This document shows positions 27,601-64,000 of a stretch of 64,000 nt of DNA, piece after piece. The first letter of the stretch is position 1, and each line of letters opens with the position of its first letter. This DNA is from Pontederia crassipes (taxonomy: Eukaryota; Streptophyta; Magnoliopsida; Commelinales; Pontederiaceae). The notes under the pieces were generated by a model, which searched no databases, was not told the origin of the DNA, and was given only the letters and a program-made list of their open reading frames with translations. The stretch lies in NCBI GenBank assembly GCA_030549335.1, contig CM060183.1, positions 35,338,768 through 35,402,767 on the forward strand, in the 5' to 3' direction. The position numbers and the translations under genes were made by a program.

Positions 27601-30600
27601 AATTCCCCAGTGCGGGCGGGTGGGTGGGGGGTGGGGGGGAGAGATCTAATCCTCCACCCCAATCCCTGCCGGGCCCCGAACCCTTGTGGGGACCCCGATT
27701 CCCCCAATTTTTTTAGGTGAAAAATGTAAAAAATAAATTAGAAAATATTTAATAATTATACAATATTTATAATATATAATTAAATTTAACGAAATTTACA
27801 AGTTCCACAGTGTAATACAAGATATGTACGATGGGGCATTGACTAGGGTTAGGACACCCGGAGGTGAGACAAATGAATTTCCTATAGGAATTGGCCTACA
27901 TCAAGGATCAGCTTTAAGCCCGTATCTATTTAACTTAGTTATCGATGCTATAACCGAGAGTATCACAGAGGAAGTACCTAAGTGCATGCTATTTGCGGAT
28001 GATATAGTACTTTTAGCGGATTCAAGAGAAGAGATTAATACAAAATTGGAAATATGGAGAAATACGTTGGAGTCAAAGGGTTTTCGTTTAAGTAGGAATA
28101 AAACAGAATATATGCATAGCAATTTCACAAATAAACAACTTAGAGACGATTTGAAAGTTAGGTTAGGGGAGGATATAATTCCTCAAGTGACAAAGTTTAA
28201 ATATTTAGGATCAATTGTAAGACAAGATGGTGAGATTGATGACGATGTTAATCATAGAATTCAAGCTGGTTGGTGTAAGTGGAGGAAAGCCACTGGAGTT
28301 CTTTGTGATAGAAAAGTACCCAATAAAGTTAAAGGAAAATTCTATCGTACTGCTATAAGGCCAGCAGTGTTATATGGTAGTGAATGTTGGGCTATGAAGG
28401 GACAACATGAACGTAAAGTGGGGGTAGCCGAAATGAGGATGTTGAGATGGATGTGTGGTCATACAAGATTAGATAAGATTAGGAATGACCATATACGTGA
28501 ACGAGTCGGAGTGGCTCCTATTAGTGAGAAAATGGTAGAGAATCGTTTGAGATGGTTTGGTCATGTTCAGAGAAGACCATTAGATGCGCCAGTAAGAAGA
28601 GTAGATCAAATAATCTGGAGTCCGATTAAAAGAGGGAGAGGGAGGCCAAGGCGGACACTTGGCGAACTAATAGAGCAAGATCTATTGGTGAATAATATAC
28701 CGAAAGGTTTGGTTACTAATAGAGCGGAATGGCGTCGTATGATCCATGTAGCCGACCCCACCTAGTGGGATAAGGCTTTGTTGTTGTTGTTGTTACAAGT
28801 TCCACAGTATAATTAGGATGATAAAAATAGCAAAAAAAAGCAATCACCTCTGTGCTTAAAATTCAAGCCTTGAATACATATGTCAAACAAAAAATACAAC
28901 AACAACAAAGCCTTATCCCACTAGGTGGGGTCGGCTACATGGATCATACGACGTCATTCCACTCTATTAGTAACCAAATCTTTCGGTATATTATTCACCA
29001 ATAGATCTTGCTCTAGCAAATAAAAAAAATAGCACCTCTGTGCGTACACAGAGGGCCTTTGCCGGCCGGCCATTGTTTTCCGCCCTCCTCCCATTTCCGG
29101 CCTGAATCCGCCATCCGGCGAGCCCACTGAGCCAGACTCATTACCTCGGCATTGTCCCCGTCCACCGCATAAGCTCATACCGGAAGGTTGGGTCGGCGGT
29201 CAGTGACGACCTCCAGCATCACAATCCCGAAGATGTAGACGTCGGTCGAGGACGTAGCTCGCGTTGCTCCGTCCTTGTACTCCAACGGCATGTACCCGGC
29301 CGGCGACCTGCGTGGACATGTGCAACCGGGGCAAGTCAACCCACTGCAGCAGCCCGAAGTCGGCGATCTGCGCCCCGAAATTGGCGTCCTCCTCACTGGT
29401 GCCGCGGCCCTCCTGCGAGCCGCCGCCCTCGCCTAGCCGTCGTTGCCCAAAAGCGGCATTGTGCCATGAGCGCCGCACTTGTCCCTCAGCCCCCGAGCTG
29501 ATAGGCGTCATGGACGAGCTGATCGTCCGTCATGGTAGAAGAAAAACTGGCGTGGGAAGGGATCGGCCATCAAGTGGAAGAAAAAGGGAACGGATCTGCC
29601 GTTGGGTGGAAGAAAAAGGGATCGGCCGTCATGGTTAGGAGGAAGAAAGACAATAGAGTTAGGGATTTAGGGTTTATATTATATATCGGATAGAGTGGAC
29701 GACTGAGATTTAATATGTTTCATCTCAAAATTATAACAAAAAAATATAAAATTAGGGAGCGGGGATTCGGGGACCCCATGGGGCGGGGGCAATTCCCCCC
29801 ACCCCCATCCCTGAAAGAGGGCTGGGGGGCAATTTACCCCCCATCCCCGACCCCACGGGAGAAAATTCTCTCTATTCGGGGCCCCGATCGGTGATTCTCC
29901 GCGGGGCCCCGCAGGAGGCAGGGGATATTCCCATCCCTAGATGTAATGGATTTTTTTTATCAGTATATATGTCAAAATGCAGCTATGTTGATATCCTTCA
30001 CTTTATAGTTTTGTGCAGCATGTGCCCTCACACTATTGGCTCTTCCTATGATGTTGCATCCTCTGTACATGCATCATGAAGGCCCTCTTGTGAGTATTGG
30101 TGTGAACAAAAAATATAAGTCTTATACATTCTTGGTTCTGATTTATCTTATTTGGAACAGGTATTGGATGTATCTGAAGCATTTGTTATGCCAGGATATT
30201 TATCTCCAGGTGATGTTATTGTAGCAGTGGATGGAACAACTATAAAAGATCCTCATGATTGGATGACTAAGATGTCCGAGATTAAATCTCAACTGCTTCC
30301 TAAACTTAACACAGAACATACCCATAGCTTTGAGAACCTTACCCGTAACAAGGGATACTGTGTTCCTGTTGTTGCAATAAAAGAGAGCAGAAATTCTAAA
30401 ATTACAAATGACCAGTCCTCATATTTAACATCTTCATGTCCTGATGAACTTTCAGTTTTCATGAGCATATCATGCTCAAATTCAAGCCTACCATTTGAAG
30501 GAAACCATTTAGAAAATGAGATGACCAATTCAGTTGATGAACAATGCTTAATATCTAGGGAGGTAGTCAAGCTACAAAAATGTGGAAACGGTTGGAATTT

Positions 30601-31931
30601 TACTGCAGAGGAAACCAACTGTGGGTGCTCAGAGGTACTGTTTAATGTCTCCATGCATGTAAAGGATCAAAGGATTACTTTGTTATTTTCCTGTAATGTA
30701 GCAAATAAGATAAATTCTTCCTCAAACATGATAAAGTAGAAAATCATATCAAGTCGAGCTACTGTTTCTTTGTATCCAACACAACATTTAAGGAGTTTGT
30801 ATGTCAGTCATGTTAACATCAGTTAGTTTTGATCTTAGTTTTGCTAAACAGTTAGATCCTGAACACTTCTTGGTTAAACTTCATATTATTAGTAGAATGG
30901 TTCATTATACATTTTTTTTAATTTGCCTTCTTGCATGTTGTCACTAACTTTTACGATCACTTATTACAGGAAGAATTGTGCATGGCGCCACTTGAGATCC
31001 CACAGATGGCATGGGTAGAGATAACTTATTCAACCCCCTACTCGTCAAAGTTCTCAAATCACATTAGGAATGAATCAGCGTATGATATTGATGTTGATTC
31101 TAAGTCAACTGCTTGTGGAGGAAGTTTTGTTTATGTTGGTGACTTAGACTCTTTAGCGCAGTCTATTCAGCTATCAGCATATCGACCTAAGTGGGCATCT
31201 ATGATTGCCTTGGTATCCATACCATATATACTGGAAAAGGTTTTAGTATATAGCTTCCATGTTTCTGCTTCATTGGTTTTACTCAATGTATTGCCGGTAA
31301 GTTGTATGTGCTTGCTCTTTTTCAAAGAATATCTAATTAAAATATGCATTAAATTTGTTATCTCATTGTTCCTTTATTATATTTGAAAGATTTCATTTCA
31401 ATATGAAGGAAACACTAAATTTTCCCCTTTTTACTAATTGGCCATAATTTGTTATCGAATCTTTATCTGTTATAGGGCATAAGTATGAGGATATACTCTG
31501 GTCCTGATACCCTGTAGTTGCTTATAATTTAATCTTACATTCAGGTTGTGATAAATCTAGCAATCTATTGTCATCCTTGTTCTTTTTTTTTTTTGGAGTA
31601 AACATCAATTGTACCTTGCACACAAATATGATGACAAAGTGTAACTTGAAGTCTTTGACCTGAGAAAAAAAAGTTTAATTTGAACACGAATGGCAACATT
31701 TTTTTTAGGATATCTAATATGGAAATATTCAGACGTGATAACCTTGAACTTGCCACTTTATAGGTGTACTTTCTGGATGGTGAATCTATTTTGGATACAA
31801 TTATTTGTCTCATCACTTTACTTCGTCGAAGGCAGCAGCAGAAAGTTGTGAGATGTTTCCTTATTGCCGGAACTATCTTGTCCATCATTTTCGTCCTGCA
31901 AATTGTTTATTCGATATACAGTAGTTCATAA
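24688..31931 (+). CDS. S2P: Site-2 protease (membrane-bound transcription factor protease, M50 family)
   Basis: Intramembrane zinc metalloprotease of the Golgi that releases membrane-anchored transcription factors; in Arabidopsis S2P processes bZIP17/bZIP28 in ER stress. Ten exons: 24688-24776, 25034-25099, 25437-25503, 26071-26163, 26234-26337, 27065-27212, 30009-30089, 30161-30634, 30970-31296, 31764-31931. They total 1617 bp, giving 538 residues and a stop, with consistent phase and GT-AG borders. The zinc site HEAGH lies in SFHEAGHAVAAA (exon 5). The PDZ-like luminal part carries GYLSPGDVIVAVDG (exon 8). The second metal-ligand motif LDG lies in VYFLDGESI (exon 10). Hydrophobic stretches include IAIFLVILFPGALVAF and the C-terminal FLIAGTILSIIFVLQIVY. 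Intron 6 (27213-30008) is 2.8 kb because a hAT element has inserted; the splice sites around it are intact, so the gene should remain functional. Start chosen at the first ATG of a GC-rich exon, giving MARERAARRGLPQTMLPLR. Confidence 0.95.
27812..28792 (+). mobile_element. 5'-truncated RTE LINE with 16-bp target duplication
   Basis: About 980 bp of RTE LINE nested in the hAT element, flanked by the exact 16-bp repeat TTACAAGTTCCACAGT (27796-27811 and 28793-28808). An uninterrupted frame of 313 codons (27824-28765) covers the end of the reverse transcriptase (LFADDIVLLAD, YLGSIVRQDGEIDDDV) and the C-terminal domain (RLRWFGHVQRRPLD), ending IHVADPT just before the TTG tail. It lacks the endonuclease and the first RT blocks and cannot move by itself. 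The intact frame and perfect duplication indicate a young insertion. It nearly matches the copy at 1-1363. Confidence 0.95.
28891..29016 (-). mobile_element. RTE LINE 3' end fragment, reverse orientation
   Basis: The CAAC-repeat tail and GTGGGGTCGGCTACATGGAT mark the 3' end on the minus strand; it encodes only the last residues (LEQDLLVNNIPKDLVTNR). Flanks CAAACAAAAAATA and CAAATAAAAAAAATA look like an imperfect target duplication. It is the second RTE insertion inside the hAT element. Confidence 0.82.
29168..29520 (-). pseudogene. Captured receptor-like kinase fragment inside the hAT element
   Basis: Two minus-strand frames give the activation and C-lobe part of a plant receptor-like (lectin-receptor-like) Ser/Thr kinase. 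One reads GAQIADFGLLQWVDLPRLHM, with the DFG metal-binding motif; the other reads GYMPLEYKDGATRATSSTDV followed by YIFGIVMLEVVTDRRP, the region after the activation loop. The two lie in different frames, so the fragment is shifted, and the N-lobe and catalytic loop are not seen. The GC content is much higher than in the surrounding intron. It lies opposite to S2P transcription, so it would appear as antisense within the S2P pre-mRNA. A retained functional peptide is unlikely. Confidence 0.8.
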
Positions 31932-34179: not shown

Positions 34180-34475
34180 TTAGTTTGGGTACATTCTCCT
34201 CCCTCCACAGCCCGCTTCCCTGCGGCAGTTGAAGTAGACGGCAGCGACAGGAGCGCCGAGGTTGTAGAGCTCCGCGAACTCTCTGGTATTGAAGTTTTGG
34301 CGCCACTGCGGCGCGTACACCGTCTGCCGGCCAAGTTGCTCGAACAGCACGATCACGAAGCGGTGGATTCCCATGCTCGGCCGCGGACTCTCGTAGCAGA
34401 TTACTTCGTTGCCTTCAAACATATATATATGCAGGTTGATATATATGAACTCATTTGCTTGATATATAAGAACTA

Positions 34476-34506
<31 letters not shown>

Positions 34507-35350
34507 AAGAAGAAGAAGAAGAAGAAGAAGAAGAAGAAGAAGAAGAAGAACCTACCAAAGTTTGGTGCAGTTGTTGCAGGAATGTCTGTAACCATCCTGA
34601 TTCATTCATTCATGGAACAGTTGGTCAGCGTATAATGCAACCTCTTGTATCTTCATAGCTATTTGGACCACAAATAGTGCTACTATATACAGAAGTTATT
34701 ACTATCATAAGATCGTTGATCGATATATCTCTGCACTTCTTTAATTAGTTTCAGACTACACGTTCATGGCGAGAAGCTTAATTTCTAGGACACAGTAGTA
34801 TTAATTTCCTTATTTCACCATCGGCAATGTGATAGTTAGGTACGATAAATCTAATAGTGCATAGTGTAATATATTCGCAATTAATTACCAATGTAAATAT
34901 TCTCGAAGGCTTTGATTGCTTGGACTAGGTGCATCAGGGTCCACCATGATCTGCAGGACCACATATAAAAGGAAAAATGACTTTTTCTTTTGTTTTGTTG
35001 AAGAAAATGAATAAACGTATACAAATATCATGTCGAAGTATATCTAGCTAGTTATACAGTTGATCAAAAGGTTCATCGTAAATATACGTATATATACATG
35101 AAGAAGGTGTATCTGTAAAACTAAGGCGTTTATATGTATGCATGCATATATATACCAAAGTGTAGAAGGTCCTGAGATCGTCGCCTCCCACTTGAACCCT
35201 CGGTTGGGTGACGACCTCAGAAGGCTTAAAGTCGCGTCCGTTGGTGACGTCCTTGGCTGCGTACCTCGCTCTCAGGCTCACACATCTGTTGAAGGGATCC
35301 AGGACATCACCCACCACCCTCCCCACCACCAATGGATCTGTCTCTTCCAT
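34180..35350 (-). CDS. FT-like: FLOWERING LOCUS T-like PEBP protein, copy 1
   Basis: PEBP-family florigen-type protein; FT proteins move from leaf phloem to the shoot apex and bind 14-3-3 and FD to set flowering or storage-organ development. Four exons: 35156-35350, 34889-34950, 34556-34596, 34180-34412 (195, 62, 41 and 233 bp). The 62- and 41-bp middle exons are the classic FT exon sizes. The product is 176 residues. Motifs: [41 protein letters not shown] (Tyr83 here equals FT Tyr85), CYESPRP, LYN, and GGRRM at the end. The external loop reads YAPQWRQNF where FT has YAPGWRQNF, so the position equal to FT Gly137 is Gln (codon 34306-34308), while Tyr134, Trp138 and Gln140 equivalents are kept. 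Intron 3 starts with a (TTC)25 tract and a long GA repeat abuts the TATA box. No disabling change seen; activator or antagonist role is open. Confidence 0.96.
34477..34550. repeat. (AAG/CTT)n microsatellite in FT-like copy 1 intron 3
   Basis: About 25 perfect AAG triplets, read as TTC/CTT on the gene strand, beginning right after the intron-3 splice donor (34551-34555). They make up half of the 143-bp intron. The same place in copy 2 (46432-46449) has about six repeats and its intron is only 85 bp. Confidence 0.97.
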
Positions 35351-35499: not shown

Positions 35500-35627
<128 letters not shown>

Positions 35628-46136: not shown

Positions 46137-47266
46137 TTAGTTTGGGTACATTCTCCTCCCTCCACAGCCCGCTTCCCTGCGGCAGTTGAAGTAGACGGCA
46201 GCGACAGGAGCGCCGAGGTTGTAGAGCTCCGCGAACCCTCTGGTATTGAAGTTTTGGCGCCACTGCGGCGCGTACACCGTCTGCCGGCCAAGTTGCTCGA
46301 ACAGCACGATCACGAAGCGGTGGATTCCCATGCTCGGCCGCGGACTCTCGTAGCAGATTACTTCGTTGCCTTCAAACATATATATATGCAGGTTGATATA
46401 TATGAACTCCATTGCTTGCAATGAACTATACGAAGAAGAAGAAGAAGAACCTACCAAAGTTTGGTGCAGTTGTTGCAGGAATGTCTGTAACCATCCTGAT
46501 TCATTCATTCATGGAACAGTTTGTCAGCATATAGTGCAACCTCTTGTATCGTCATAGCTATTTGGATCACAAATAATGCTACTATATAAGGAAGTTATTA
46601 CTATAATAAGATCGTTGATCGATATATCTCTGCACGTCTTTAATTAGTTTCAGTCTACACGTTCATGGCGAGAAGCTTAATATCTAGGACACAGTAGTAT
46701 TAATTTCCTTATTTCAGGCATCATGAGCAGTGTGATAGTTAGGATAAATCTAATAGTGCATAGTGTAATATATTCGCAATTAATTACCAATGCAAATATT
46801 CTCGAAGGCTTGGATTGCTTGGACTAGGTGCATCAGGGTCCACCATGATCTGCAGTACCACATGTAAAAGGAAAAATGACTTTTCTTTTGTTTTGTTGAA
46901 GAAAATGAATAAACGTATACAAATATTATGTCGAAGTATCTCTAGCTAGCTATAAAGTTGATCAAAAGGTTCATCGTAAATATACGTATATATATACTGA
47001 AGAAGGTGCATCTGTAAAAGTAAAACAAAGGCGTTTATATGTATGCATGCACGTATGGATAATATATATACCAAAGTGTAGAAGGTCCTGAGATCGTCGC
47101 CTCCCACTAGAACCCTCGGTTGGCTGACAACCTCAGAAGGCTTAAAGTCGCGTCTGTTGGTGACGTCCTTGGCTGCGTACCTCGCTCTCAGGCTCACACA
47201 TCTGGTGAAGGGATCCAAGACATCCCCCACCACCCTCCCCACCACCAATGGACCTGTCTCTTCCAT
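46137..47266 (-). CDS. FT-like: FLOWERING LOCUS T-like PEBP protein, copy 2
   Basis: Tandem paralogue of the gene at 34180-35350, on the same strand. Exons 47072-47266, 46788-46849, 46455-46495, 46137-46369 (195, 62, 41, 233 bp) give 176 residues. Differences read by eye from copy 1: D5G in [11 protein letters not shown]21T, G38R, T48S, Q53L, a Gln-to-Pro change in [11 protein letters not shown], and E-to-G in [10 protein letters not shown]. All PEBP hallmarks are kept: [29 protein letters not shown]. It shares the YAPQWRQNF loop with copy 1 (Gln at the FT Gly137 position). Introns are 222, 292 and 85 bp. A TATA box and a short GA repeat precede it. It looks intact; the replacement of the acidic residue in NTRDF/NTREF by Gly is unusual for the family. 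Confidence 0.96.
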
Positions 47267-52225: not shown

Positions 52226-52949
52226 AGTTGTTTTTTTTTATCATGTTCTCATATATATTTTGTTACATATAAATATGTCAGAAATATGTAAGCGCTCAGT
52301 ACATATTAAAATAATTAAGTTATAACAAATATAATGATGAATGAAGTAAAAAAGTTAAAAACATTTTTTTAAAAAATAAGGAAAAAATAGAATGAAGGAA
52401 AGAAGGAAAGAAAGAGAACTTGGAGTTGAGAATTGGTATGCAACTTTTACCACCATATATAAAAGATAAAAAGAAAACAAATCATGCATGGGAATATATA
52501 ATATGGTCGATATAGAAATGCTGCAGTAATCAGATTTCTTCTTCTTTTTATTTTTTGTGGTGGCAAAGGTTGCACATCTTAATATGTACCAGTACTATAT
52601 ATAGATATAGCTGCATGAGAGACTTGGGTCGATGCCTTTAGGAGAGATAGAGATATATCTGAAAGATGCATGTCTCATTTTATCAGGAACAAAAGAAGAA
52701 TACTGGCAAAGCTTTTAGGACCAGGCGATCGAAGTAACCACAACTTTAATTTCTGTTCATGCAACCGAGATTCTATTCGTAGCATATGGAAGAGGATCAG
52801 ATTATTGATTTCAACCAAGAAACATCACATGTCATTTCATGTACAGGATCAGCAGACGTCAATCTGATACAAAATGGAATATTGAACAGGAATACAAAAA
52901 TGGAGAAAGAAAAAGTTGACGTTTTGCTTTGCCAATATATGCAGCAAAT

Positions 52950-53795
52950 CAGTGTTATTAGAATCCGACCGGACCGGCCGATCCGACCGGTTCGACTGTC
53001 GATCGGTTGTTAAGACTGATCAGTTTGAAAGCTATAACCGGATTACCCTTTGGACCGAATTACACTTTGGACCGGATTAAATCGGTTAAACTCGGTCAAA
53101 AACCGAAAAAAATCGGGTTAAACCGGATTAAATCGCGATTTGTATGAATCGGATCTTCTACAGAGACGAGTGAGTGAAAGAGAGAACACGTGAGAGAGGG
53201 ATAGATATATATTGAAAATGTAAAAGATCAATGTGAATCATGGAGAAAGAGACTGTTGTGAGAGAGAGAAATATTATTGGAAATGCAAGAGATAAGAATC
53301 GGAGAGAGAGACGTGTGAGAGAGAATGAGAAACATTTGATACAGAGAGTAGAGATGTTGAAAATGAGAAATAGGCAGTTTGAATTTGGAAAGAGAGAGAG
53401 TGTGTTGGGAAGGAAAGAGATAATATGGGGTAACGAGAAAGAGAGCGCAAGAGACGTTGGAAATGTGAGAATAATGAAGGCAATAGAACTATTAAGATAT
53501 GTATAAGAAAATTTGAACATTTTTTATAAAAATATCTTATCTTAGAAAATTATTATGATTATAATATTTTATTTTATAATTTAAACCTGCTTGATTTCAA
53601 AATATTATGATTTAATTTTATTATAATATTTTTACCTTATTTTTATGTTTGATATATAAATAATTTAATATATTATATTAAATTATAATATTTTATTATT
53701 AAGCGATCCGACCAATCGGTCCAACCGGTTCGACCGGTTCAATTTAAAACGGAGACTTTTTTGATTCGTTATCCGATCCGATCGTGACATCACTG
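52950..53795. mobile_element. Non-autonomous hAT element, block copy 1
   Basis: 846 bp beginning CAGTGTTATTAGAATC and ending GATCGTGACATCACTG, with an exact 8-bp target duplication CAGCAAAT (52942-52949 and 53796-53803). Subterminal text is rich in GACCGG/CCGGTT. The interior is GA-rich; its short frames show no transposase. Confidence 0.9.
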
Positions 53796-54589
53796 CAGCA
53801 AATTAAATTCACGCATGCATAGTTCATCATGTATGTATGTTTGTATTTATGTGTTATTAAATTAGTTTGGGCTATATGCATGTACATGTGAATAAATCTA
53901 TCCTGATGGTGAGAGCTCTCCACTGCAGGAGAGAGAAAGTGAAGGGTTCACGAATCTAGCTAACCCAATCGCTATGGAATATAAGATGCCACGTTGGCCT
54001 TGGTAAATGGTTAAAACCACGTGGTCATTTAATTTTTTTTCCCATTTACGGATAATGTTTGGAAAATATTAGATATGTAATAATGTGCTCGACGTGTACG
54101 TCATAAAAGAACAAATGAATGCAATGGGTATAGGAACCTTTGCTTGTCTTCCATTTTATTTTGGTGCATAATTAAGCTTCTAATTAAAAAAAGTGAAAAT
54201 ATAGTGTTGTCTAAAAACTAATTACGTAAAATCCGACTGGATCGGACTGATTGAACCAATGTCCGGTCTTCAAAATAATTTGCGAATAAACTCAAACTTG
54301 TCCTTAAGATTGTTTTATTTTTATTCGATCAAATACAATTAAAATTCGAATTCAGTAGGTCAATCTGACGAGTTTGAATTATCTGGTCGAATCAAATTGA
54401 AAATAAATAATTAGGACAAAAAATTAAAAATTTTAAGATGCATTACTTGCATATTTATAATTATAAAAAAAAATCATCTTGTATGTAATAACTATTTAGT
54501 TAATACTTAGTTTCTTATATTATTTTACTTTTAAGCTATTTTATTTAAATTTATTATAATAGAACAGTAAGAATCAATTTTGACATACT

Positions 54590-55170
54590 AGAGCCTATAA
54601 AAAGAGTGTCACAGCTAGAAACAAAAGCATACATCAAAGTCTTGAAAAAAACTTCAAGTTATCGAAAGAAAACATTTTCCTTGAAGTTTTCATTTTAAGT
54701 TTTCTCTTCTTTCTCTCTTCTCCTCTTGTGAGCTTCGCATTGTAAAAGAGAGAAACATTTTATTTAGAAAAATACTGAGCTCCTGTGTAAAAGATGTTCT
54801 AAATTTTACATCTTAAGCGAAAGAAAAGATTAACTTCATTGGAGGAGAGATGAGTCTTACCTCTCGAAGCGGAGAAAAGGTGGTGGTGTAAAGGGTTTTT
54901 TCTTCCTTGCCTCATTTGGAATAAAAGAAGAATTCTAGTGGAATCTCCGACACTATCAAAGTCAACAAGTCGGAGCGGAGACGTATATCAAGGTGTGGCT
55001 GAACCTCGTCAACAACCATCGCGCTCATTGTATTTGAATTCTTTCTCTCTCTCATATTGTGTTTGATATGATCTGAGTTGTATTATTTTTAAAAGGATTA
55101 ACGAATCGATTTTAAGCTTCCGCGATAAATTTCGTGAAATTAATAGTTTTGTTTCAAACACCAACCCCCC
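54590..55170. other. Possible LTR-derived stretch, block copy 1
   Basis: Non-coding sequence (GAGTGTCACAGCTAGAAAC, CTTGTGAGCTTCGCATTGTA, TTTCAAACACCAACCCCCC) resembling the end part of a copia-type LTR. A fossil if so; no proteins and no second LTR seen. It abuts the CACTA element at 55174. Confidence 0.3.
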
Positions 55171-55173
55171 TCT

Positions 55174-56394
55174 CACTACAAAAATCCGTCGCAATTTGCG
55201 ACGGATTGAAATCCGTCGGGACGACCGACAGTTACAGTCATCAGAAATAAAAATAATAAATTATGCAATATGTTATATTATTATTTTATTTTTGACGATT
55301 AGGAACATTGAAAGTTCCAACGGATATCTATCCGTCGTAATTTTCGACGGTCCTGACCGTCGGTATATAATATAAGAAGTATTTTATTAATATAATTAGC
55401 GATAGTCCAAACCGTCATAATTTTTTACGGTCCTGACCGTCGATAAGTAAAAAATAATATAATATAAGGAGTTTTTTGTTAATATAATTAGCGACAGTCC
55501 AGATCGTCAAAATTTTCGACGGTGTAGACCATCAGTAAACTAAAAAAAAATATTCTATATATGTAAGTAGTATTTTATTATTATAATTAAATAATTTCCA
55601 ACAGTCTCGACCATAAGTGTCTTTAAAAATAATTAAATATTATATTCAAATATATCATAATAATATATATTATTGATATTTCCTATGTTTTCGACAGTCA
55701 TGACCGTCGGTAATTAAAAAATCACTCTCCCGCTGCTTCTTTTTTCATTATATATATATATATATCATCTTTCCCATCTTTCTCTCTCTCCACTCACTAC
55801 TTCTTTCCCTCTATCCTCTCTCTCTCCCTCTCTTATTTTGCCAGCGCGACGGCCTCTCGGACGATGACCCGCCGACGACCCTCTCTCTCTCTCCAGCTCG
55901 GTCTCCGGCTCTAGCTCCTTCTTCGTTCGGATGCCAGCGGCCGGATCCGGCCGCCTCACAGTCTGATCTAGCCGCGGGCGGCCGAATCTGCCGCTGGCAG
56001 CACCAGGTGGTCGATCCGTCGGCCGGCTATACCAGAGCCGGCTAGCGGCTGGCAAATTTTTTTATATTATAAAAATCTATTGCGACGGTTGTCACCATTG
56101 AAACTTTCGACGGTTGTGACCACCGAGGTTTTTCCATGATTGCTACCGTCGGAATGTTTCGATAGTTGCCGCCGCCGAAATGTTTTGATGATTACGACCG
56201 TCGGAGTTTTGCAGCGGTTATAACCGTTAAAACTTTTGACGAATTTTTTTGACCCATCGAAAATGGATATGCGAGGCCTTCTTTTTCGACTGAACGGATT
56301 CGTCGATAAATCCGTTTGAAACAGAAGTTTCAGATGATTTTCTTGGATTTTGAGACGGTTTGGACCGTCTGATAAAATCTCTTTTCTTGTAGTG
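55174..56394. mobile_element. Non-autonomous CACTA element, complete (CGACGG family, copy 2)
   Basis: 1221 bp, starting CACTACAAAAATCCGTCGC and ending TTTTCTTGTAGTG, with target duplication TCT (55171-55173 and 56395-56397). It has CGACGGT/ACCGTCG subterminal repeats and a central CT-rich and GGCCGGATCC-type part. No transposase. Confidence 0.92.
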
Positions 56395-56464: not shown

Positions 56465-56814
56465 ACTGGAGCATGATCAAGACAACTAGATGAGTATGTG
56501 CTATCAGGATGATGGATGAGTGAATGGCATGGAATGACACCTCCATGCACGTAGAGATGTTTCATCACAATGGGTTAGTGATCGACAATTGATTCATCAC
56601 ACAATAGGCTGAGCGCAAGGCATCTGCTGAAATGATGTTGATGACGTTGACTACTTGTGAGTGCTTCCACCACTTCTGCCGAGCATGATTGTCCTCGAGG
56701 GGACCATGAGATGTTCAAAGTATTGTCCTTGGAGGTTAGAATATTTTCTCGGTTGTTAAGGTGACGTTTAATGCGGTTAGATGGGTTTTTGTGGCTTGTA
56801 CGTCGTCTTTAATG
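56465..56814. repeat. Segmental duplication unit 3, downstream fragment
   Basis: Matches 32836-33190 of unit 1 (GCATGATCAAG, GTGCTATCAGGATGATGGAT, GTCGTCTTTAATG). The match stops at TTTAATGG, where block copy 2 begins. Confidence 0.85.
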
Positions 56815-57258
56815 GTCGATATAGAAATGCTGCTGTAATCAGATTTCTTCTTCTTTTTATCTTTTGTGGTGGCAAAAGTTTCACATCTTAATATGTACCA
56901 GTACTATATATAGATATAGCTGCATGAGAGACTTGGGTCGATGCCTTTAGGAAAGATAGAGATATATCTGAAAGATGCATGTCTCACTTTATCAGGAACA
57001 AAAGAAGAATACTGGCAAAGCTTTTAGGACCAGGCGATCGAAGTAACCACAACTTTAATTTCTGTTCATGCAACCGAGATTCTATTCGTAGCATATGGAA
57101 GAGGATCAGGTTATTGATTTCAACCAAGAAACATCACATGTCATTTCATGTACAGGATCAGCAGACGTCAATCTGATACAAAATGGAATATTGAACAGGA
57201 ATACAAAAATGGAGAAAGAAAAAGTTGACGTTTTGCTTTGCCAACATATGCAGCAAAT

Positions 57259-58071
57259 CAGTGTTATTAGAATCGGATCGGACCGGTCGATCCGACCGGT
57301 TCGACTGTCGATCGGTTGTTAAGACTGATCAGTTTGAAAGCTATAACCGGATTACCATTTGGACCAAATTACCCTTTGGACCGGATTAAACCGGTTAAAC
57401 CCGGTCAAAAAACCGAATAAAATCGGGTTAAACCGGATTAAATCGCGATTTGTATGAATCAGATCTTCTACATAGACGAGTGAGTGAAAGAGAGAACACG
57501 TGAGAGAGGGAGAGATATATATTGAAAATGTAAAAGATCGAAAGAGATGGTTGTGAGAGAGAGTAATATCATTGGAAATGCAAGAGATAAGAATAGGAGA
57601 GAGAGACGTGTGAGAGAGAATGAGAAACATTTGATACAGAGAGTAGAGATGTTGGAAATGAGAAATAGGCAGTTGGAATTTGGAAAGAGAGAGAGTGTGT
57701 TGGGAAGGAAAGAGATAATATGGGGTAACGAGAAAGAGAGCGCAAGAGACGTTGGAAATGTGAGAATAATGAAGGCAATAGAACTATTAAGATATGTATA
57801 AGAAATTTTGAACATTTTTTTATAAAAATATCTTATCTTATTTAGAAAATTATTATGATTACAATATTTTATTTTATAATTTAAACCTGCTTGATTTCAA
57901 AATATTATGATTTAATTTTATTATAATATTTTTACATTATTTATATGTTTGATATATATTGTATTAAATTATAATATTTTATTATTAAGCGGTCCGACTA
58001 ATCGATTCGACCGGTTCAATTTGAAACGAAGACTTTTCGATTTGTTGTCCGATCCGATCGTGACGACACTG
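57259..58071. mobile_element. Non-autonomous hAT element, block copy 2
   Basis: 813 bp, same element and same CAGCAAAT duplication (57251-57258 and 58072-58079) as block copy 1, so it was present before the block duplicated. The 25-bp end repeats share ATCGGATCGGAC after the CAGTGT start. Confidence 0.9.
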
Positions 58072-59451
58072 CAGCAAATTAAATTCACGCATGCATAGTT
58101 CATCATGTATATATGTTTGTATTTATGTGTTATTAAATTAGTTTGGGCTATATGCATGTACATGTGAATGAATCTATCCTGATGGTGAGAGCTCTCCACT
58201 GCAGGAGAGAGAAAGTGAAGGGTTCACGAATCTAGCTAACCCAATCGCTATGGAATATAAGATGCCACGTTGGCCTTGGTAAAAGGTTAAAACCACGTGG
58301 CCATTTAAATTTTTTTTCCCTTTTACGGATAATGTTTGGAAAATATCAGATATGTAATAATGTGCAAGACGTGTACGTCATAAAAGAACAAATGAATGCA
58401 ATGGGTATGGGAACCTTTGCTTGTCTTCCATTTTATTTTGGTGCATAATTAAGCTTCTAATTAAAAAAAATGAAAATATAGTGTTGTCTAAAAACTAGTT
58501 ACGTAAAATCCGACTGGATCGGACTGATTGAACCAATGTCCGGTCTTCAAACTAATTTGCGTATAAACTCAAACTTGTCCTTAAAATTGATTTATTTTTA
58601 TTCGATCAAATACAATTAAAATTCGAATTTAGTAGGTCAATCCGACGAGTTTGAATTATCTGGTCGAATCAAATTGAAAATAAATAATTAGGACAAAAAA
58701 TTAAAAATTTTAAGATGCATTACTTGCATATTTATAATTATAAAAAAAATCATCTTGTATGTAATAACTATTTAGTTAATACTTAGTTTCTTATATTATT
58801 TTGCTTTTAACCTATTTTATTTAAATTTATTATAATAGAACAGTAAGGATCAATTTTGACATACTAGAGCTTATAAAAAGAGTGTCACAGCTAGAAACAA
58901 AAGCATACATCCAAGCCTTGAAAAAAATTTCAAGTTATCAAAAGAAAATATTTTTTTTGAAGTTTTCATTTTAAGTTTTCTCTTCTTTCTCTCTTCTCCT
59001 CTTGTGAGCTTCGCATTGTAAAATAGAGAAACATTTTATTTAAAAAAATATTGAGCTTCTGTGTAAAAGATGTTCTAAATTTTACATCTTTAACGAGAGA
59101 AAAGATTAACTTCATTGGAGGAGAGGTGAGTCTTACCTCTCGAAGCGGAGAAAAGGTGGCGGTGTAAAGGGTTTTTTTCTTCCTTGCCTCATTTGGAACA
59201 AAAGAAGAATTCTAGTGGAATCTCCGACACTATCGATGTCGACAAGTCGGAGCGTAGACGTATGTCAAGGTGTGGCTGAACCTCGTCAACAACCATCACG
59301 CTTATTGTATTTGAATTCTTTCTCTCGCTCATATTGTGTTTGATATGATCTGAGTTGTATTATTTTTAAAAGGATTAACGAATCGATTTTAAGCTTCCGC
59401 GATGAATTTCGTAAAATTAATAGTTTTGTTTCAAACACCAACCCCCCCTCT

Positions 59452-60216
59452 CACTACAGAAATCCGTCGCAATTTGCGATGGATTGGAATCCGTCGTAAT
59501 TTGCGATGGATTGGAATCCGTCGGGACGACCGACAGTTACAATCGTCAGAAATAAAAATAATAAATTATACAATATGTTATATTTTTATTTTAATTTTCG
59601 ACGCTTAGGAGCATCGAAAGTTCCAACGGATATCTATCCGTCGTGATTTTTGACGGTCCTGATCGTCGATATATAATATAAGGAGTATTTTATTAATATA
59701 ATTAGTGATAGTCCAAACCGTCGAAATTTTTTACGGTCTTGACCGTCGGTAAGTAAAAAATAATATAATATATGAAGTTTTTTGTTAATATAATTAGCGA
59801 CAGTCCAGACCTTCAAATTTTTTTACGGTGTAGACCATCAGTGAACTAAAAAAAATATTCTATATATGTATGTAGTATTTTATTATTATAATTAAATAAT
59901 TTCCGACAGTCTCAACCGTAAGTGACTTTAAAAATAATTAAATATTATATACAAATATATCATAATAATATATATTATTAATATTTTTAAGTTTTCGACG
60001 ATCATGACCGTCGATAATTAAAAAATCACTCTCCTGCTGCTTCTTTTTTCATTATATATATGTATATATATATAACATCTTTCCCATCTTTCTCTCTCCA
60101 CTCTCTACTTCTTTCCCTCTATCCTCTCTCTCTCCCTCTCTTATTTTGCCAGCGCGACGACCCGCCAGCGACTCTCACTCTCTCCAGCTCGGTCTCCGGC
60201 TCGAGCTCCCACTCCG
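59452..60216. mobile_element. CACTA element, left part only (CGACGG family, copy 3)
   Basis: Starts CACTACAGAAATCCGTCGC and follows the copy at 55174 down to the CT-rich centre, then is cut off and replaced by FT unit-3 upstream sequence. The right end is absent. Confidence 0.88.
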
Positions 60217-60425
60217 ATCAAAGTTTCTTGAAGAATCCGCTTTATATTGCCTTTCAAGTTGCATTCACCATTGTGGTGTTCCACAGCTTAGGTGATAGGC
60301 CCCCGTTTATTCTTTCCCCTTTATTTTGTACTGCGCAATTATTTTCCGAATCGGATTCACTCCTAGATAAGCATATGGTGCATACATGCATGTTTGCTAA
60401 TGAAGTAATATATCCAACTAACTAA
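60217..60425. repeat. Segmental duplication unit 3, upstream fragment a
   Basis: Matches the FT upstream region at 35670-35860 and 47485-47695 (GAAGAATCCGCTTTA, GTGATAGGCCCCCGTTTATT, AGATAAGCATATGG). The TATA box, start codon and exons that should follow on the left are missing. Confidence 0.87.
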
Positions 60426-63400: not shown

Positions 63401-63720
63401 CATATTACAATAAAAATATTTTTAAAATAAAAATAATCAATACAAGTAAAAGTACTAATTGATAATAATATTTTTATATAATATTATATTTATGTAGATA
63501 TTTAAAATTTTTTAATATTTTTTTATGTTAAAAATAAGAGGTAAAAATGATATTTCACACTTATTAGAAAAAAACTAACAAAGTTTAGATTAAATTTAAT
63601 TGAAAGATTTAAGTGTCAAATTTAAATAAGTTCGGAGAATAAAATTTATAAATTTATAGTTTAGGGTTAGATGTGAAAAAAGTTATACTTTAGGAGATGT
63701 TAAAGGAAAATTGAAATAAC
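60426..63720. mobile_element. Long-inverted-repeat element (possibly Mutator-like), split by a CACTA
   Basis: The insert separates two FT upstream fragments that are contiguous in unit 2. Its ends are inverted repeats: 60515-60735 and 63325-63707 (reverse) share CCTAAACTATAAA, AATTTGACACTTA and CATGCTGCCCATTAAAATGG / TGCTCCCTACATC, with the right arm about 160 bp longer. Long arms are typical of Mutator-like elements, but I see no transposase and no certain target duplication. Between the arms, 60736-61394 and 63033-63324 hold non-repetitive text with a short frame (LPKIELVLINVAKQSPLFEV) that could be a captured gene piece of unknown origin. Confidence 0.6.
61395..63029. mobile_element. Non-autonomous CACTA element, complete (CGACGG family, copy 4)
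   Basis: 1635 bp, starting CACTACTAGAAAAACGCTG and ending GATTTTCTTGTAGTA, with target duplication TTT (61392-61394 and 63030-63032). It is a close sister of 40371-42206: same CGACGGT/ACCGTCG repeats, same GGATCCGGCC minisatellite (61815-62110). No transposase. Confidence 0.92.
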
Positions 63721-64000
63721 CAAATAATTAATCTGAACATTGTATATGTTAAACAGGTTGCTTGGGTTCTAATCCAATTCGAAGTTAAGGGTGGTGTCAC
63801 CCAGCTCGATCTAATTGATTTGATCACCGATACCAAGTAATGATCGAGCCTCCAATTTTCCATCAGTTACAAATTAAAACCCTCACAAGTTTTGTGGGTA
63901 AGAAATAATTAAACTATATACCTTTTATAGACCAACAAGCTTTTCAAAGAAAGGTTGAGCAATAACAAATCTGCTCATGAATCTTTATTCTAAAAATGAA
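63721..64000. repeat. Segmental duplication unit 3, upstream fragment b
   Basis: Continues the FT upstream homology after the insert: TTAATCTGAACATTGTATAT, GGTGGTGTCACCCAGCTCGA, ATAGACCAACAAGC as at 35945-36230 and 47710-47960. It runs off the window edge. Confidence 0.88.

Follow-up and report, generated by a model that had tools for sequence, protein, structure and literature searches.

In FT proteins, single swaps have marked Tyr134, Trp138 and Tyr85 as essential (work cited in PMC7816854). Trp138 occurs in all inducer FTs of the alignment given in PMC10156061 and Tyr134 in most of them; both are likewise present in the gene cluster described here. Monocot FTs form three clades, segment B being conserved in clade I and variable, chiefly at Trp138, in clades II and III (PMC9847362). 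In the loop of sugar beet BvFT1 three residues are changed together, Y134N/G137Q/W138Q as stated in PMC9865765, in agreement with the original prediction for this locus, which had named Gly137 to Gln as one of three changes. Published results on residue 137 diverge. Replacement of Gly137 by Ala, Trp, Glu or Arg gave Arabidopsis FT zero repressive activity (PMC10156061, citing Ho and Weigel). R133G in the soybean repressor GmFT4 (FT137 by our alignment) allowed about two thirds of transformants to flower like wild type and does not create an activator, while H130Y plants (aligned to FT134) remained late-flowering like those with GmFT4 (PMC8107440). Residue 137 seems to modulate, without being decisive on its own. 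Nor do its neighbours settle the matter: DlFT2 and GmFT4 are repressors retaining Trp138, and PaFTL1 and PaFTL2 are repressors retaining Tyr134 (PMC10156061). Because some repressors keep one of the two, their retention is no proof of activation. Other records of a changed residue 137 are scattered. The designation 'G137R' occurs in a kiwifruit paper (PMC5441913), and for the longan activator DlFT1 a passage of PMC12787483 gives Tyr134, Gln137 and Trp138 as conserved P-loop residues; the printed Gln may be a slip for Gly, and DlFT1 is not counted here as an activator with Gln137. The strings YAPQWRQ, APQWRQN and YAPQWRQNF are absent from the literature text searched, where such strings are rare in any case, so that novelty is not implied.

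The window, that is the whole stretch of 64,000 nucleotides that was analysed, corresponds to positions 35338768-35402767 of contig C1 in a 1.13-Gb assembly of 43 contigs. It contains two FT genes, a flanking gene and the remnant of a further FT unit:

30119-31930, plus strand: 3′ exons of a flanking gene, probably site-2-protease-like (M50); its M50 and PDZ matches are weak and all fall short of the Pfam cut-off
34180-35350, minus strand: FT copy 1 gene, in the standard four-exon layout
35156-35350, minus strand: copy 1 exon 1, 195 nt, start codon at 35350
34889-34950, minus strand: copy 1 exon 2, 62 nt, with Pro80Gln, found in copy 1 only
34556-34596, minus strand: copy 1 exon 3, 41 nt
34180-34412, minus strand: copy 1 exon 4, with the segment B loop, the LYN triad and the stop codon
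34306-34308, minus strand: CAG (Gln) codon of copy 1 at the FT Gly137 position, plus-strand triplet CTG
46137-47266, minus strand: FT copy 2 gene, in the standard four-exon layout
47072-47266, minus strand: copy 2 exon 1, with Asp7Gly and Gly40Arg (FT numbering), found in copy 2 only
46788-46849, minus strand: copy 2 exon 2
46455-46495, minus strand: copy 2 exon 3
46137-46369, minus strand: copy 2 exon 4, with Glu146Gly
46263-46265, minus strand: CAG (Gln) codon of copy 2 at the FT137 position
60216-60413, minus strand: remnant of the upstream region of a further FT unit, with a further piece at 63718-64000

The PEBP domain of copy 1 is recognized by PF01161 with 44.7 bits against a Pfam cut-off of 24, and the four exons, with exons 2 and 3 of 62 and 41 nt, follow the pattern of the FT clade. 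Both copies were predicted to carry Gln at the FT Gly137 position (YAPQWRQNF), and this is what the CAG codons give when read in frame and aligned to solved FT and Hd3a chains: the Gln sits opposite the Gly of YAPGW in rice Hd3a (3axy) and Arabidopsis FT (6igg and 1wkp). Sequences for comparison were taken from these PDB chains and from the window's own assembly. Loci recur there on the contig pairs C1/C2, C3/C4, C7/C8, C9/C10, C11/C12 and C13/C14, which suggests that two haplotypes are present in the assembly. With exon 4 as query, 37 matches were obtained, 30 of which were read, the remaining seven (52-59% identity) being left out. YAPQWRQNF is found in seven of these 30 loci, four on C1 (L003, which is copy 1, L005, which is copy 2, L008 and L009) and three on C2 (L004, L006 and L007). 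All seven genes are intact, with GT donors, AG acceptors, 176 codons and a single terminal stop, and all use CAG for Gln137; with the identical codon in seven genes, a sequencing error was rejected as its source.

Elsewhere in the assembly the picture is different. A PGW loop, with Gly137, occurs in 16 further FT-type exon-4 sequences (L010-L025), in a YAPGW context in 14 cases and YEPGW in two, and five further loci (L028-L032) are TFL1-like. When the entire assembly was scanned with a degenerate pattern for the Gln loop, with no mismatch allowed, seven places were hit, all in this cluster; the backward control gave none. Gln is thus fixed in one FT clade, being present in 7/7 cluster genes against Gly in 16/16 of the FT-type sequences with a PGW loop, and the scan found no other place. 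As a separate observation, the second exon of six of the Gly-type loci (L016-L019, L021 and L022) reads REHLHW, with His, the TFL1-type residue, at the Tyr85 position, yet their loops are YAPGWRQNF.

A tree was built from the codon alignment of 18 of the 30 exon-4 loci, the other 12 having no complete four-exon model. The branch parting all 13 FT-type genes from the five TFL1-type genes has a support of 100, the seven Gln genes form a clade of their own (support 100) whose closest group is the sister pair L014/L015 (support 81), and the stem of the Gln cluster is the longest among the four FT groups. In the three FT groups that have complete models and Gly at this site, the Gly codons are GGC, GGG and GGA, each at least two base changes away from CAG. 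Since Gln occurs in all seven cluster genes, Gly in the 16 others and Glu in two divergent loci, Gln137 probably arose once and became fixed before the recent tandem amplification.

The array has its own history. The flanking gene, probably site-2-protease-like (S2P-like), adjoins the FT array on both C1 and C2, and the array extends away from it. In the tree of gene bodies the two genes nearest to it, L003 and L004, separate from the other five copies with a support of 100, a split that would be expected of alleles. Two genes on C1, L008 and L009 (G000:C1:35415259 and 35427291), lie 12 kb apart and are identical over 2031 aligned bases of their gene bodies; a longer aligned block of their units, of 5.9 kb, is only 98.2% identical, so that a mere duplicate of the assembly process is less likely, and the sequences point to recent duplication or recent gene conversion. 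Informative bases in the CDS contradict the grouping by gene bodies: L004 shares three with L007, and L003 shares three with L005, two of the latter falling in one codon. This conflict between CDS and gene-body topologies suggests that exon sequence has been exchanged between copies on the same homologue. Several other features of the region were recorded. Broken, partly repeated pieces resembling the S2P-like neighbour lie between FT copies at G000:C2:2585843-2586776. A long (AAG)n repeat occupies part of intron 3 of copy 1 (window 34478-34550) and a long (GA)n repeat lies immediately upstream of that copy (window 35505-35626), both much shorter in copy 2. Finally, a direct repeat of about 3.3 kb, 92-95% identical (window 52503-55851 and 56812-60159), adjoins the FT upstream remnant, beside which tblastn found no FT exons.

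Residues tied to FT function are largely maintained in the cluster. All seven genes keep D17, V18, R62, T66, V70, D73, S76, R83, E84, Y85, P94, F101, E109, R119, L128, R130, Y134, W138, Q140, Y151, N152 and G171; R62, T66, F101 and R130 among them are the 14-3-3 contacts. This list, which covers co-activation, movement and 14-3-3 contact, comes partly from PMC9865765, the source also for G171, which lies outside the aligned FT chain, while D17 and V18 come from PMC7693649. The equivalents of Tyr85, Tyr134, Trp138 and Gln140 are thereby retained in 7/7 genes, as had been anticipated from the two window copies. Tyr85 and Gln140 are marks of the FT clade, occupying the places of His88 and Asp144 of TFL1, and by all clade features tested the cluster genes are assigned to the FT clade of the PEBP family. 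Leu150 completes an LYN triad in all seven, as in Hd3a. Among the marks of activators, Tyr134, Trp138, Gln140 and the LYN/IYN triad are therefore found in every cluster gene, and Gly137 in none. Judging from the sequence, the retained Trp138 looks clade-I-like. The plant itself is probably a monocot, to judge by how many distinct FT groups it has. Gln137 is not the only fixed departure: the cluster differs at eight positions (FT4, FT6, V30A, L89M, F122I, G137Q, Q165R and S170C), and a stricter leave-one-out count gives six for the cluster against two to three per other group.

The explanation that appears most likely, and that is held with moderate confidence, is that these are FT-type genes in which Gln137 is tolerated and is not an antagonist switch. 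One old Gln137 substitution would have been fixed in a single FT lineage, and this lineage would then have been amplified in tandem to three or four genes per homologue. Through 14-3-3 and FD, its proteins would still co-activate in the manner of florigen, perhaps at an altered strength, Gln137 by itself being a tolerated change of the loop that may bring slight tuning. After amplification purifying selection would have relaxed, leaving single copies to drift. The sequence, its fixation, the intact frames, the retained residues and the selection pattern are direct observations. The protein activity and the flowering effect of the genes are what we infer from them, florigen-like activity being likely in view of the retention of all other residues that were checked for activation, docking and transport. 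Speaking against this explanation are the effect of R133G in GmFT4, the existence of repressors with Trp138 or Tyr134, the other fixed departures of the cluster and its relaxed constraint.

Selection on the cluster was followed with branch codon models on 12 of the 13 FT CDS (L009, identical to L008, being omitted). Omega is 0.333 within the cluster and 0.097 elsewhere (2lnL 11.8, p 0.0006). The cluster stem has an omega of 0.084, not above background; an adaptive burst on this stem was rejected, since a separate stem omega adds a 2lnL of only 0.27 (p 0.60). The raised cluster omega holds on both topologies, as the gene-body topology again gives 0.33 within the cluster against 0.070 at control haplotype-pair tips (p 0.003). 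The one-omega fit is far worse on the gene-body topology (lnL -2097.6) than on the CDS topology (-2069.7), probably owing to exchange between copies. Minimal change counts, made on six of the seven cluster CDS (L009 = L008) and on controls that are few, comprising three haplotype pairs, agree with these models: 19 nonsynonymous to 16 synonymous changes in the six distinct cluster CDS versus 6 to 24 in the controls (Fisher p 0.0056). Pairwise NG86 ratios range from 0.17 to 0.79 in the cluster (20 of 21 pairs, L008/L009 having no differences) and from 0.06 to 0.08 in the three FT control pairs; the three TFL1-type pairs reach 0.22-0.60, so the Gln cluster is not alone in having a raised ratio. 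At least one cluster copy is altered at 14 of 110 invariant positions. Some sites that do not vary in the comparison set carry changes private to a single copy (P80Q in copy 1, D7G together with G40R in copy 2, L124P in L007), all of which fit relaxation after duplication. Residue FT146 is Gly in copy 2, where the remaining cluster copies and the 16 Gly-type sequences have Asp or Glu. Our reading of this pattern is a functional gene long conserved under strong purifying selection, with constraint relaxed after duplication. The stem omega, no higher than background, makes it look as if the lineage was kept functional while it acquired Gln137.

Relaxed constraint would fit dispensable copies as well. 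According to this first alternative, the copies are redundant and heading for loss, are weakly or not expressed, and carry a Gln137 without consequence. It would account for the within-cluster omega of 0.33 against 0.07-0.10 elsewhere, for the excess of nonsynonymous changes over that in the controls, for the four copy-specific changes at otherwise invariant sites and for an upstream remnant without FT exons. It has more difficulty with seven intact frames and sets of splice sites, with an omega well under 1 following strong purifying selection on the stem, and with the TFL1-type pairs of the same genome, whose ratios are likewise raised. Redundancy is considered clearly less probable than retained co-activation.

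Another possibility is that Gln137 makes the lineage a floral antagonist of the BvFT1 type, competing with activator FTs for 14-3-3 and FD. Gln137 is common to BvFT1 (PMC9865765) and to HvFT4, a repressor from barley (PMC7816854), repression by GmFT4 depends in large part on the residue aligned to 137 (PMC8107440), and one of the two aromatic residues may persist in a repressor (PMC10156061). However, BvFT1 also alters Tyr134 and Trp138, and HvFT4 also lacks Tyr134, Trp138 and LYN, all of which the cluster keeps; G137E, G137R, G137A and G137W reportedly fail to turn Arabidopsis FT into a repressor (PMC10156061). Of the BvFT1-type marks, Gln137 is present in 7/7 genes and an altered Tyr134 and/or Trp138 in none, and membership with BvFT1-type antagonists was rejected on the retention of these two residues. 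The same genome also holds a far more antagonist-like loop in L026/L027 (exon 4 at G000:C9:21615735 and C10:61326852), where YAPESQENF provides Glu137, Ser138 and Glu140 and the LYN triad is lost; recognisable exons 1-3 lie upstream (L051:6543-7333 and L052:2132-2918), with Tyr85 retained. This divergent FT-like pair is, on its sequence, a stronger candidate for an antagonist-type gene than the window copies. The antagonist reading of Gln137 is weak, and this rival is considered unlikely. The original prediction, which saw in the protein a mix of activator and antagonist marks, is upheld in that the residue is real and fixed in one clade; its suggestion of an antagonist or special role is not, given the G137A/W/E/R results (PMC10156061) and the retained Tyr85, Tyr134 and Trp138.

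Slightly less probable still would be an intermediate situation, in which the cluster encodes an attenuated, dose-tuned florigen, or a competitor that binds 14-3-3 and FD normally and recruits a downstream co-activator poorly. As part of the same doubtful reading, the cluster would be a case in which nature has isolated a single loop residue associated with antagonists, all else in the background being of activator type. A role outside flowering, for instance in dormancy, bulbing or the control of storage organs, is improbable, for although monocot FT paralogues with such roles exist (for example onion AcFT1/AcFT4, PMC6274202) and tandem amplification would suit a function that depends on dosage, nothing in the sequence analyses run points to dormancy or storage organs.

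The distinction between these readings matters. If the Gln137 genes encode plain activators, as in the preferred explanation, they would confirm by a natural example that Gly137 can give way to another residue without FT turning into a repressor, and would warn against reading function off individual loop residues. In the case of attenuated or competing florigens, one of the three BvFT1 changes would be isolated on an activator background, where its separate effect is testable.

Among known systems, rice Hd3a and Arabidopsis FT are aligned with the window genes over nearly their full length (phmmer scores of 278, 272 and 270 bits for 3axy, 6igg and 1wkp), sharing the YAP-WRQNF loop apart from residue 137 as well as Tyr85, Trp138, Gln140 and the XYN triad; the cluster differs from them by Gln137, by other fixed changes such as V30A, L89M, F122I and Q165R, and by its recent tandem amplification. 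Eggplant SmFT-3 is a comparable natural FT altered at 137, in which Tyr85, Tyr134, Trp138, Gln140 and LYN are retained (PMC10156061). The sugar beet floral repressor BvFT1 also has Gln at FT137 (PMC9865765, PMC4707262), but combines it with Asn134 and Gln138 where the cluster retains Tyr134 and Trp138. The monocot floral repressor HvFT4 of barley has the same Gln137 as BvFT1, but is described as lacking Tyr134, Trp138 and LYN, with RFN in place of the triad (PMC7816854), whereas the cluster retains all of these. The soybean floral repressor GmFT4 shares with the cluster a residue other than Gly at FT137 (Arg133 in our alignment) and a retained Trp138 (PMC10156061); it differs from the activator GmFT2a at six of 14 loop residues (PMC8107440), whereas a single loop residue sets the window copies apart from FT and Hd3a.
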